Shown here one piece after another: positions 52,440 to 55,731 of a stretch of 63,461 nt of DNA. The translations under genes and the position numbers were made by a program. Each line of letters starts with the position of its first letter. Position 1 is the stretch's first letter. Under the pieces are notes generated by a model that saw nothing but the letters and a program-made list of their open reading frames with translations, ran no database searches and was not told where the DNA came from. The stretch is from an uncultured Verrucomicrobia subdivision 3 bacterium (GTDB taxonomy: Bacteria; Verrucomicrobiota; Verrucomicrobiia; Limisphaerales; UBA11358), in the NCBI GenBank assembly GCA_903875465.1, contig CAIQWB010000023.1, positions 1-63,461 of the forward strand, given 5' to 3'.

Positions 52440-53354
52440 GTGGAAACTGTCACCCAGCTGACCAACCAACTTGTTGCCTCCTACGCCCAATTGGGCGGGA
52501 TCAATCATTTGGATGGCAAAAACCTGCCCTCCAAACGGGCCATCACGGCCATCACCCAGGACCTGCTGCGCCTCCTTTTCCCCGGCTTTTTTGACGAAAA
52601 ACTCATCCATTCCTCCGAAATCAAAGTCGAAACCGCCGCCCTGCTGGACCAGGTCCTCGGCAGTTTCGAGGATGAAATCCGCAAAAGCCTGGAATACCAT
52701 TCCCCACCCCACCTGGCCAAAAACCAAATCCCCCAAGCCGCCCACGACCTGACATTGGAATTCCTCGGCCGCCTGCCCGCCATCCGGGAAGTCCTCCAAA
52801 CCGATGTCCAGGCCGCCTTCGATGGCGACCCCGCCGCCCTGAGCAAGGAGGAAGTGCTCGTTTCCTATCCCTTTGTGGAATCCATCGCCGTCCAGCGGCT
52901 CGCCCATGCGCTTTATCTGAAGGAGATTCCCCTCATTCCCCGCATCATGGCCGAATGGGCCCATTCCCGTTCCGGCATGGAAATTCATCCGGGTGCCAAA
53001 ATTGGCACCCATTTCTTCGTGGATCATTGCACCGGCACCGTCATTGGCGAAACCGCCGTCATTGGCAATCACGTCAAGATGTATCACGGCGTGACCCTCG
53101 GTGCCAAATCCACCGCCGGCGGCCAGCAATTGCGCGGCAAAAAGCGCCACCCCACCATCGAAGACCACGTCACCATCTACCCCGGGGCCACCATCCTGGG
53201 CGGCGACACCGTCATCGGGGCCGGCAGCACCATCGGCGGCAACGTCTTTATCATGGACAGCGTAAACCCCAATTCCCTGGTCATTTATGACGGCTTGGAT
53301 ATGCGGGTGCTGAACAAAGCCGCCAAGTATGCCGCCTTGGATTTTCAAATCTAA
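52440..53354 (+). CDS. cysE: serine O-acetyltransferase
   Basis: 304 residues from GTG 52440. It acetylates L-serine with acetyl-CoA for cysteine synthesis. The N-terminal helical domain (about 1-170) is longer than in enterobacterial CysE and fits the EpsC/plant-like group. The left-handed beta-helix follows: GMEIHPGAKIGTHFFVDHCTG, VIGETAVIGNHVKMYHGVTLG, KRHPTIEDHVTIYPGATILGG, with the catalytic-region His-Gly-Val-Thr-Leu-Gly intact. cysK is not nearby. A GNAT gene follows after 14 bases. Confidence 0.93.
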   Translation: METVTQLTNQLVASYAQLGGINHLDGKNLPSKRAITAITQDLLRLLFPGFFDEKLIHSSEIKVETAALLDQVLGSFEDEIRKSLEYHSPPHLAKNQIPQAAHDLTLEFLGRLPAIREVLQTDVQAAFDGDPAALSKEEVLVSYPFVESIAVQRLAHALYLKEIPLIPRIMAEWAHSRSGMEIHPGAKIGTHFFVDHCTGTVIGETAVIGNHVKMYHGVTLGAKSTAGGQQLRGKKRHPTIEDHVTIYPGATILGGDTVIGAGSTIGGNVFIMDSVNPNSLVIYDGLDMRVLNKAAKYAALDFQI

Positions 53355-53368
53355 GCCCCCGCTCCCCC

Positions 53369-53851
53369 ATGCCCGAAATCTCCCCCGCCACCCTGGCCGA
53401 CGTCCCCCAACTCGTCGGTTTGCTCACCATCCTCTTCACGCATGAAGTCGAACTCGCCCCCGACCCCGCCAAACAGGAACGCGCCCTCCGCCTCCTTCTC
53501 ACCCAACCGGAGCAGGGCCGGATCTTTTGTGCCCGGGAGGGCAACCAGGTATTGGGCATGGTCAGCTTGCTCTTCACCATCAGCACCGCCGAGGGCGGTC
53601 GCTCCGCCTGGCTGGAGGACATGGTCGTCCATCCGGGTCACCGCCAGCAGGGTCACGGCCAGCAACTCATCCAGCACGCCCTGCATGCCGCCCAAACCCT
53701 CGGCTGCACCCGGGTGACCTTGCTGACCGACGGCATCAACACCGCTGCCATGCGCTTTTACGAACGCGCCGGCTTCACCCGCTCCGCCATGGTCCCCTTC
53801 CGCCTGCACCTGCCACCGGCTGGCCCATCCGGATCGCCTTGTGAAATTTGA
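53369..53851 (+). CDS. GNAT family N-acetyltransferase
   Basis: 160 residues. The GNAT fold is clear: N-terminal PEISPATLADVPQLVGLL, the strand AWLEDMVVHPGHRQQGHGQQLI with the acetyl-CoA loop QxxGxG (about 94-99), and MRFYERAGF near the end. It lies 14 bases after cysE, so it is probably co-transcribed. Acceptor unknown. Confidence 0.85.
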   Translation: MPEISPATLADVPQLVGLLTILFTHEVELAPDPAKQERALRLLLTQPEQGRIFCAREGNQVLGMVSLLFTISTAEGGRSAWLEDMVVHPGHRQQGHGQQLIQHALHAAQTLGCTRVTLLTDGINTAAMRFYERAGFTRSAMVPFRLHLPPAGPSGSPCEI

Positions 53852-53875: not shown

Positions 53876-53904
53876 TTGACGTCGGCAGCGTCCGTGGTTA
53901 GTTT
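53876..53904 (+). promoter_or_regulatory. putative promoter of the leu attenuator-leuA unit
   Basis: TTGACG (53876-53881), 17-base spacer, TAGTTT (53899-53904). Transcription would begin near 53910, at or just before the leader ATG (53911), so the leader peptide might be read from a leaderless transcript. The -35 is strong. The -10 matches the consensus at four of six positions. Confidence 0.5.
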
Positions 53905-53910
53905 GTCAGG

Positions 53911-53976
53911 ATGAATCGCAACCTGAACCTGCTGCTTACGAACGCGCTGCTGAACGGCGCGGCAGTTGGGTTTTAA
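53911..53976 (+). CDS. leuL: leucine leader peptide of leuA attenuator
   Basis: 21 residues: M N R N L N L L L T N A L L N G A A V G F. Six of 21 are leucine (five CTG, one CTT), all within the first 14 positions. Five Asn are also present. The stop is followed after 19 bases by a strong terminator hairpin and then leuA. This is the standard arrangement of ribosome-mediated attenuation, in which leucyl-tRNA shortage stalls the ribosome and favours an antiterminator. Translation signal: CAGG lies just ahead of the ATG. Confidence 0.85.
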   Translation: MNRNLNLLLTNALLNGAAVGF

Positions 53977-54028
53977 TTTGGTTGTCAAATTTACTAACCC
54001 CACTGCCCAACCGGCGGTGGGGTTTTTT
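53961..54028 (+). promoter_or_regulatory. leucine attenuator: antiterminator segment and terminator
   Basis: The terminator arm AACCCCACTGCC (53996-54007) pairs fully with 54013-54024, with one G-T wobble. The segment GGCAGTTGGGTT (53961-53972), inside the end of the leader ORF, can instead pair with that same 5-prime arm at 11 of 12 positions, forming an antiterminator. The two pairings exclude each other. A ribosome that finishes the leader would cover 53961-53972 and allow termination. One stalled at the Leu codons (53923-53952) would leave it free. Confidence 0.8.
53996..54028 (+). terminator. rho-independent terminator of the leu attenuator
   Basis: 12-bp stem (53996-54007 with 54013-54024), 5-base loop CAACC, followed by six Ts (54023-54028). 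It lies 48 bases upstream of the leuA ATG, so its strength sets leuA transcription. Confidence 0.9.
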
Positions 54029-54075
54029 ATTGATTAATCTCAGCAAAAGCGCCACCGCCATAACCAACGAAAGCC

Positions 54076-55731
54076 ATGCTCAAAGATACTGTGCACAAAT
54101 ATCGTCCGTTCCCCCCGGTGGCGCTGCCCGACCGCCAGTGGCCCAACCGTGTCCTCGCCCGCGCCCCGCGCTGGTGCAGTGTGGACTTGCGCGATGGCAA
54201 CCAGGCGCTCGCCGTCCCCATGAACGTCAGCCAGAAGCTCGAATTGTTCCAGGCCCTGGTCAAAACCGGCTTCAAGGAAATCGAAGTCGGCTTCCCGTCC
54301 GCCTCCAACACTGAGTTCACCTTCAACCGCCGGTTGATCGAGGAAAAGCGCGCCCCGGACGATGTCTGGTTGCAGGTGCTCGTCCAGGCCCGGGAGGATT
54401 TGATCGAACGCACCGTGGAATCCCTCATCGGTGCCAAACGGGTGATCATCCATATGTATAACTCCACCTCGCCCGCCCAGCGGCGCGTGGTGTTCGGCAA
54501 ATCCAAGGAGGAAATCAAGGCCATCGCGGTCAAGGGCGCCCGCATGATTTATGAGCGCCTGCACCGTTTGCAAGGCACCGAAATCGCCCTCCAATATTCG
54601 CCCGAAAGTTTTAGCGGCACCGAGGTGGAATTTGCCCGGGAAATTTCCGAGGCCGTCATGGATGTCTGGCAGCCCACGCCCGAGCGCAAGATGATCCTAA
54701 ATCTCCCCGACACGGTCGAAGTGGCCATGCCCAATGTCTATGCCGACCAAATCGAATGGATGTGCCGCCACCTCAAAAACCGGGAATCCCTGGTCATCAG
54801 CCTCCACACCCACAACGACCGCTACACCGGCGTGGCCGCCACCGAACTGGGCTTGCTCGCCGGTGCCGACCGCGTCGAAGGCACCCTCTTTGGCAATGGC
54901 GAACGCACCGGCAATCTGGACATCGTCACCGTGGCCCTGAATCTCTACATGCACGGCATTGATCCGCAGCTTGATTTTTCCAACCTGGGCGAATTGGTGC
55001 GCGTTTACGAGCGCTGCACCGGCATGACCGTGCCCCCACGCCAGCCTTATGCCGGCGAACTGGTCTTTACCGCCTTCAGCGGTTCCCACCAGGACGCCAT
55101 CAAAAAAGGCCTGGCGGAATGGGAAGGTGGCGGCCGCACGCATTGGGACGTGCCCTATTTGACCATTGATCCCAACGACATTGGCCGCGAATACCGCGAG
55201 GTGATCCGTGTTAACTCCCAGTCCGGCAAGGGCGGCGTGGCCTACCTGCTCGAAAGCGAATTTGGCATCGAATTGCCCAAGGATTTGCAACGTGAATTCG
55301 GCCCCATCGCGAACGACGCCGTGGACCGCCTGGGCCGCGAAGTCAGTGGCGCCGAACTCAAAGGCATGTTCTGGCAGGAATACATCGAACGCACCACCCC
55401 TTGGGAAATCGCGTCATTTGCCACCGAAAGCCAGAACGGCTCCGTCCGTTGCCGGGCCACCTTGTTGCATCACGGCACCCCCGTGACCATGGCTGGCGAA
55501 GGCAATGGTCCGCTGGCCGCCCTCGTCAATGCCTTTATCAGTCAGGGCCAGCCCCGCTTCGAAATCGCGAACTATAGCGAGCACGCTTTGAGTGCCGGCG
55601 AGGCCGCGAGTGCCATTGCCTACATTCAGATTAAACATGGCAGCGGCAAAACCATCTGGGGCGCCGGGGTGGACACCAACATCGAATTGGCCTCGGTCCG
55701 GGCGGTGTTGAGCGCCTTGAACCGGTCTTGA
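54076..55731 (+). CDS. leuA: 2-isopropylmalate synthase
   Basis: 551 residues, the longer yeast/actinobacterial-type LeuA. It condenses 2-oxoisovalerate and acetyl-CoA, the committed step of leucine synthesis. Seen: KYRPFPPVALPDRQWPNR, WCSVDLRDGNQAL (33-45, metal and substrate site), KEIEVGFPSAS, HTHNDRYTGVAATELGLLAGADRVEGTLFGNGERTGN (metal ligands and acyl-binding region) and a C-terminal LeuA regulatory domain (about 420-551) for leucine feedback. Transcription is governed by the attenuator just upstream. leuB, leuC and leuD do not follow. Confidence 0.96.
   Translation: MLKDTVHKYRPFPPVALPDRQWPNRVLARAPRWCSVDLRDGNQALAVPMNVSQKLELFQALVKTGFKEIEVGFPSASNTEFTFNRRLIEEKRAPDDVWLQVLVQAREDLIERTVESLIGAKRVIIHMYNSTSPAQRRVVFGKSKEEIKAIAVKGARMIYERLHRLQGTEIALQYSPESFSGTEVEFAREISEAVMDVWQPTPERKMILNLPDTVEVAMPNVYADQIEWMCRHLKNRESLVISLHTHNDRYTGVAATELGLLAGADRVEGTLFGNGERTGNLDIVTVALNLYMHGIDPQLDFSNLGELVRVYERCTGMTVPPRQPYAGELVFTAFSGSHQDAIKKGLAEWEGGGRTHWDVPYLTIDPNDIGREYREVIRVNSQSGKGGVAYLLESEFGIELPKDLQREFGPIANDAVDRLGREVSGAELKGMFWQEYIERTTPWEIASFATESQNGSVRCRATLLHHGTPVTMAGEGNGPLAALVNAFISQGQPRFEIANYSEHALSAGEAASAIAYIQIKHGSGKTIWGAGVDTNIELASVRAVLSALNRS

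Follow-up and report, generated by a model that had tools for sequence, protein, structure and literature searches.

The leuA gene of an uncultured Verrucomicrobia subdivision 3 bacterium is preceded by a short leucine-rich leader that is very probably a ribosome-mediated transcription attenuator, which would couple leuA transcription to leucyl-tRNA supply. The sequence analysed, called the window here, is the whole stretch of 63,461 nucleotides of contig CAIQWB010000023.1, and all features of the leuA locus given below lie on its forward strand. The ORF, its Leu codons, the pairings, the terminator and the promoter geometry, together with their conservation, are taken directly from the sequence and from comparison. 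An earlier reading of the same DNA (the sequence-only reading) had proposed a leucine attenuator at this place, and it is supported by the retention of the Leu codons and by compensatory changes in the stems; the leaderless geometry, a pairing reason for the Asn codons and an attenuator before ilvB are additions beyond it.

Results

Anatomy of the leuA leader

The leader ORF (MNRNLNLLLTNALLNGAAVGF, 53911-53976) runs from ATG to TAA and encodes 21 residues, and is probably leaderless. Codons 5, 7, 8, 9, 13 and 14 are Leu codons, and five of the 21 residues are Asn. Codons 5, 7, 8 and 9 (CTG AAC CTG CTG CTT, 53923-53937) are the presumed control codons, as suggested by positional conservation and by a ribosome-position scan. 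Region 1 (GAACCTGCTGC, 53925-53935) is the predicted partner of 53962-53965 and 53967-53973 according to the fold and to synonymous recoding. Region 2 (GGCAGTTGGGTT, 53961-53972), identified by alignment, covariation and recoding, is the 5′ arm of the antiterminator and at the same time encodes the AAVGF tail of the leader. Region 3 (AACCCCACTGCC, 53996-54007) serves both as the terminator 5′ arm and as the antiterminator 3′ arm, and region 4 (54013-54028) consists of the terminator 3′ arm (54013-54024) and the U-run; both regions rest on a terminator scan and covariation. Within the leader ORF, an accessory hairpin was predicted by the fold at codons 11-17 (53943-53961), and its GCGCTG..GCGCGG sequence is mostly kept across the alignment of related elements (A1, see below).

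The terminator stem (53996-54024) has 12 base pairs, eight of them GC, and is followed by TTTT. Regions 2 and 3 pair at 11 of 12 positions with a single T.C mismatch, and the predicted energies are −22.4 kcal/mol for the terminator and −19.9 kcal/mol for the 2:3 pairing. The gene for 2-isopropylmalate synthase, leuA (54076-55731), was identified by the NCBIfam models NF002991 (814.7 bits, cut-off 455) and TIGR00970 (729.5 bits, cut-off 697.4), and 47 bases separate 54028 from its start. When the sequence was re-read, the positions previously assigned to the leader, region 2, the terminator and leuA all proved correct, and the same was true of the six Leu codons, the Asn richness and the 11/12 pairing. 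Upstream on the same strand are a gene for a serine O-acetyltransferase of the EpsC/CysE type (52440-53354) and, directly before the leader, one for a GNAT-like acetyltransferase (53369-53851) that scores below every family cut-off.

The predicted fold of 53876-54075, a stretch that includes 35 bases 5′ of the presumed transcription start, beats 200 of 200 shuffles (z −4.99). Given that no shuffle folds as well and that 99 of the 124 distinct leuA upstream regions share the arrangement, we conclude that it is not due to chance.

Conservation of the element in the order

This type of leuA is present in 147 of 293 genomes of the order, and the upstreams of 110 of these 147 were read (30 loci and 80 stretches). 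An N terminus was present in 134 leuA loci, whose upstream sequences comprised 124 distinct regions; L025 and L027, which have no N terminus, were set aside. Elements were searched for as a segment 2 pairing with a segment 3, segment 3 pairing with a segment 4, and then a T-rich tail, plus a leader ORF. The triple-segment match was obtained in 112 regions, 12 of which were dropped by eye as spurious or without a convincing leader (L015, L017, L020, L022, L028, L102, L166, L175, L178, L179, L183 and L188). Of these, L020 resembles a genuine variant whose terminator is mismatched, and stems are present in L188. Three more regions (L009, L112 and L132), in which the stems are present and the leader is cut off by the sequence slice, were not counted, and L004 and L129 were added by hand. 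Segment search and inspection together thus gave 99 elements with leader, antiterminator and terminator; several of the 25 regions not counted as complete come from other orders. Alignment A1 contains 87 non-redundant elements, the 12 others having been omitted by choice (L100, L176 and L191) or because they were over 93% alike (nine elements).

Leaders of the 99 elements mostly end in AAVGF or a similar sequence, start with GTG (76), ATG (22) or TTG (1), and in 98 cases have 17-27 nt between the stop codon and the core of region 3. Sequences of leuA near this group were also found under the titles Klebsiella pneumoniae (L011) and Akkermansia muciniphila (L015 and L022), which are probably mislabelled metagenome bins.

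The Leu codons are conserved in relatives and not lost: Leu makes up 542 of 1855 leader residues (29%). Position 9 is Leu in 69 of the 87 leaders and position 5 in 60, via six different codons, and leader Leu is kept despite C/T changes of the first base. The codons used are CTG (335), CTT (98), TTG (55), CTA (32), CTC (12) and TTA (10); by comparison, five genes of the window have CTC 63 times and CTG 64 times among 188 Leu codons. Asn is found at positions 2, 4 and 6 in 52, 45 and 59 of the 87 leaders, respectively. In the predicted fold, AACC from the Asn-Leu codons is base-paired to GGGTT, the sequence encoding the Gly-Phe end of the leader, and this pairing would explain part of the Asn richness.

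Alternative pairings of the leader RNA

The sequence-only reading had put forward mutually exclusive pairings. Compensatory changes are strong for the terminator; those for the antiterminator are also positive but less clean. In A1 (n = 87), 96.5% of the terminator cells are paired, and 43 cells show double changes; shuffles give 11.4 (none of 500 reaching 43), and no slid version exceeds 9. The antiterminator is paired in 89.4% of its cells, and slid versions reach at most 58.5%. Six of its pairs change on both sides (3.3 when shuffled, at most 4 when slid), and its covariation score of 0.162 exceeds those of the shuffled (0.127) and slid versions (0.085 or less). Cells with double changes numbered 16, more than in shuffles (6.3; 1 of 500 as high) but fewer than in four of the six slid versions (26, 22, 22 and 18), so this count gives the antiterminator no support.

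Compared with synonymous recodings that keep the peptide, the native 2:3 duplex was stronger (mean z −0.80, 93% negative, n = 87), and so was the native 1:2 duplex (mean z −1.19, 89% negative, n = 87), suggesting that RNA pairing is favoured beyond the needs of the peptide.

The ribosome-position scan was made with an RNA ending after region 3, and a downstream protection of 10 nt was assumed. With the A site on codons 5-13, the probability of the 2:3 pairing was 0.97-0.99 before region 4 exists; it was 0.80 on codon 14, 0.33 on codons 15-16 and 0.0 on codons 17-22. A ribosome stalled on Leu codons 13-14 would partly cover region 2. In the ribosome-free RNA ending after region 3, the 2:3 pairing thermodynamically beats 1:2, and in the full-length RNA the 3:4 terminator wins at equilibrium at every ribosome position; therefore, the decision of the switch must be kinetic. 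Classical attenuators likewise switch kinetically.

Promoter and start of the leader

A −35 box, TTGACG (53876-53881), whose TTGAC is conserved in relatives, is followed after a 17-nt spacer by a −10 box, TAGTTT (53899-53904), which ends 6 nt before the leader ATG. This spacing (TTGACG-17-TAGTTT-6-ATG, offset 35) is the commonest among the leaders. Promoter tests were made on 95 of the 99 leaders, those with 45 nt of upstream sequence. Of the 95, 72 have an exact TTGAC at a distance of 33-38 nt upstream of the leader start, compared with 10 of 1900 shuffles, and 75 have a TTGAC-like box (at least 4/5) 34-37 nt upstream of the start codon. A full promoter, in which the −10 box has to end 5-9 nt ahead of the start codon, was found in 58 leaders, the window's included, and missed in the other 37; the controls gave 30 of 1900 shuffles (1.6%) and 6 of 563 other start codons. 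The gap between the −10 box and the start codon is exactly 6 nt in 39 of these 58. A stricter generic sigma-70 scan returned no promoter site before the window's leader. Shine-Dalgarno-like 4-mers showed no excess, being present in 2 of 95 leaders vs 5.2 expected. Judging from this geometry, the window's leader is probably leaderless, with transcription starting at or adjoining the A of its ATG.

Proposed mechanism and alternatives

The features by which an attenuator is recognised can be read in the window: a short ORF rich in Leu codons stands before leuA, a predicted intrinsic terminator lies between them, and an antiterminator exclusive of the terminator takes its 5′ arm from the last part of the leader ORF, with one covariation measure unsupportive. 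In the model, whose inferred parts are the point of transcription start, leader translation, ribosome stalling and the leucine response, transcription would begin at the start codon of the leader and a ribosome would load at the RNA 5′ end without a Shine-Dalgarno site. When leucine is short, the ribosome would halt on Leu codons 5-9 and mask region 1, so that region 2 could pair with region 3 before region 4 has been transcribed. With 2:3 paired, the terminator would not form and leuA would be transcribed.

The position of the ribosome might instead act mainly via translation coupling or a Rho-dependent step and not via the intrinsic terminator. Such a route is suggested by the leaders of family f66, which mostly precede a strong hairpin without a U-run, and by Actinobacteria, which have leaders without obvious terminators according to the available text of two reports (PMC1262725, PMC8079986). 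In the window, however, a U-run follows the stem, which is in competition with the antiterminator, and leuA starts 47 bases past the U-run, a distance that is too far to make direct stop-start coupling likely. We regard this explanation as improbable. It is even harder to believe that the hairpin is a plain terminator, either of the upstream gene or constitutive, and that the Leu-rich ORF arose by chance in GC-rich DNA. Although CTG-rich DNA easily yields short Leu-rich frames and the GNAT-like gene ends at 53851, just upstream, the position and length of the leader, its Leu positions and the stop-to-terminator distance are kept in 99 of 124 regions, the leader 3′ end is complementary to the terminator arm in 89.4% of cells, and a dedicated promoter precedes the leader. 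Least probable of all, to the point of being negligible, is control of the hairpin by a trans-acting factor or a ligand-binding RNA (T-box or riboswitch) with the ORF incidental, for which no supporting point was found and against which stand the lack of any Rfam family at the gathering score, the lack of any T-box or riboswitch in the region even at E ≤ 10, and the fact that what is conserved is a Leu-codon reading frame.

A valine counterpart before ilvB

The putative leucine attenuator of leuA has a counterpart: in this genome and in relatives, ilvB has a predicted valine-rich attenuator that matches it. The ilvB gene was present in all 20 genomes searched, the window's included (19 over the cut-off), and a Val-rich leader precedes it in 19 of 19 genomes with a sufficiently complete upstream, again including the window's own. 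These leaders have at least five Val in 18 cases and three in one, a composition biased upwards because the frame with the most V, I and L was chosen as the leader in each case, with a promoter bonus; a typical one ends in LVVVVVSDAVGAC. The terminator arm reads ACCCACGGC in 17 of the 19 genomes, and in 16 the leader start is preceded by a TTGAC-like box at a distance of 36-39 nt; the remaining three were either unscored or had none there within the slice. In the window's genome, the ilvB leader (MFNTVSLVAILVVAVVGDADGSC) and its terminator lie on the reverse strand at G000:C122:64073-64195 (loci L204 and L290), and this element is the second-best match of the leuA model (E 1.7e-6). Upstreams of trpE and hisG (19 loci each) had no consistent Trp- or His-rich leader.

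A look-alike in another class

The leuA covariance model, R1, was run against 387 genomes of the phylum with strict filters and eight candidates scored per genome. It gave matches at E ≤ 0.001 in 42 genomes, the top two being the window's genome and one of its genus. Of 28 loci inspected by eye from the remaining 40 genomes, 27 looked like ordinary terminators or coding stretches, so R1 says little on the spread of this kind of attenuator. A real look-alike is L286 (family f86, another class; L286:1439-1640; R1 E 2.7e-4), in which TTGACA lies 38 nt before the ATG of a Leu-rich leader (MNSIATRVTLRGLLLRLLGLAPFTVGPVEGA) and the predicted energies are −16.1 kcal/mol for the 2:3 duplex and −20.4 kcal/mol for a U-tailed terminator. 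The leuA that follows matches TIGR00973 (657.1 bits, cut-off 598.7), the model for the other bacterial type. By its predicted elements, L286 is the same design before a different leuA type, a single case in another class.

A CGA-Leu dicodon in the wider class

The class-wide search covered 137 leuA genomes, 108 of them outside the order, and 65 of these 108 were read. An in-frame CGA-CTT in a short ORF was found in 33 of the 65 leuA upstreams of other families, compared with 0.56 in mononucleotide shuffles, and was lacking in 32. Leaders with CGA-CTT occur in 8 of 19 families and in all 15 loci of f66 (L352-L358, L360-L362, L365, L370, L372, L375 and L376). Examples of f66 leaders are MRNIIQALRLS and MRILGQALRLTSAHDL, each ending at a stop codon, and after most of them comes a hairpin of the kind ACGCACGATC..GATCGTGCGT that lacks a U-run. 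Further leuA leader types were seen in L328, L332, L336, L367, L371 and L381, together with L368, L384 and L389 (other families), with tails such as LLLGLAAH before the stop codon (with GGGTTGGCCGCCC-like DNA) and a GCGCTTCTCCCCTGAGGGGGAG type.

In the 87 leaders of the order, Arg directly before Leu within codons 2-11 is encoded by CGA 25 times and by CGG 4 times, whereas CGA accounts for 5 of 90 other Arg codons in the same range (Fisher p 8e-17, a value that ignores kinship and in which the comparison Arg codons are partly bound by pairing). Within the leuA coding sequences themselves, for the same set, CGA makes up 43 of 1463 Arg codons and 9 of the 138 that stand before Leu. On these counts, many leuA leaders of the class fix a rare CGA codon before a Leu codon. 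The window's own leader is without CGA, and the equivalent place in its branch is CTG-CTT inside the Leu run. CGA-CTT was also considered as an RNA pairing partner and tentatively set aside: no conserved complement was visible by eye, and six f66 folds share no partner. An RNA polymerase pause at CGA-CTT was considered too, on the basis of the pause consensus.

We tentatively suggest that across the class leuA leaders may be leaderless or nearly so and that leucine may be sensed by a CGA-Leu dicodon, mostly CGA-CTT, at about codons 8-10. A slowly read CGA would hold the ribosome at the point where the outcome of RNA folding depends on the next Leu codon; the available text of one report describes slow reading of CGA in the Salmonella his leader (PMC4046918). 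If so, the sensor would be tuned by the speed of a codon pair and not by the number of Leu codons alone.

Discussion

The leucine attenuator and its valine counterpart at ilvB would carry this kind of control into a large, poorly cultivated phylum, and they offer a gene-level clue to how branched-chain amino acid synthesis may be controlled in Verrucomicrobiota. The CGA-Leu dicodon would be a natural test case for codon pairs tuning attenuators. A leaderless start removes Shine-Dalgarno-dependent loading, so the synchrony of ribosome and RNA polymerase would have to arise differently. The tryptophan leader peTrpL of Sinorhizobium meliloti reportedly starts leaderless.

No such leader in Verrucomicrobiota was known to the sequence-only reading, and our search of the open-licence PMC literature likewise found no Verrucomicrobiota attenuator or leader-peptide case among the papers listed. 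A broader survey of attenuation is said to have been made by Lopatovskaya and colleagues, and the priority of the present case is uncertain because that survey may bear on it. The available main text of Naville and Gautheret (2010) leaves Verrucomicrobia, Opitutus and Akkermansia unmentioned, and places the peptide-leader systems of that time in Proteobacteria and Actinobacteria, with Firmicutes as a new case. Two papers joining Verrucomicrobia, leader peptide and attenuation dealt, in their available parts, with erm(B) induction in one case and with E. coli his-leader reporters in the other.

The leucine leader of Rfam, RF00512 (Leu_leader), scored 13.7 bits against a gathering score of 50 and is not a match. 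Rfam searches of the whole window, and of the element at a relaxed threshold, gave no attenuator family at threshold; the best matches of the element were sub-threshold sRNA and miRNA families, and the T-box family was not among its matches. When 20 further loci upstream of leuA in the class were compared with Rfam, only a tRNA came up.

The enterobacterial leuL has a short Leu-codon ORF and regions 1-4 before a biosynthetic gene. The window's element resembles it (RF00512) in all of these features and in having an antiterminator and a terminator that exclude each other. It differs in that its leader is probably leaderless and uses mainly CTG and CTT and not CUA, and in that region 2 is formed by the last coding stretch of the leader itself. 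CUA codons have a role in the Salmonella leu leader, according to the available text of PMC1183508.

Outside the enterobacteria, LeuL1 and LeuL2 of Streptomyces lividans, which precede leuA and leuS, respectively, are described in the available part of PMC8079986 as leaderless Leu-codon leaders and would be similar in this respect. However, LeuL1 is described there as lacking a typical intrinsic terminator, whereas the window has a classical antiterminator/terminator pair. The actinobacterial LEU element forms a pseudoknot, with a base stem in which Leu codons pair with the Shine-Dalgarno sequence of leuA, unlike the window's U-run terminator, and mutations of a similar-looking leuA leader in Streptomyces coelicolor had effects inconsistent with classical attenuation (both from the available text of PMC1262725). 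The peTrpL peptide is also an attenuator leader peptide, but it serves tryptophan and belongs to Alphaproteobacteria (PMC7298713, available text). Attenuators of this kind are known; the novelty lies in the phylum, in an apparently leaderless start combined with a complete terminator, and in the CGA-Leu dicodon of the class.
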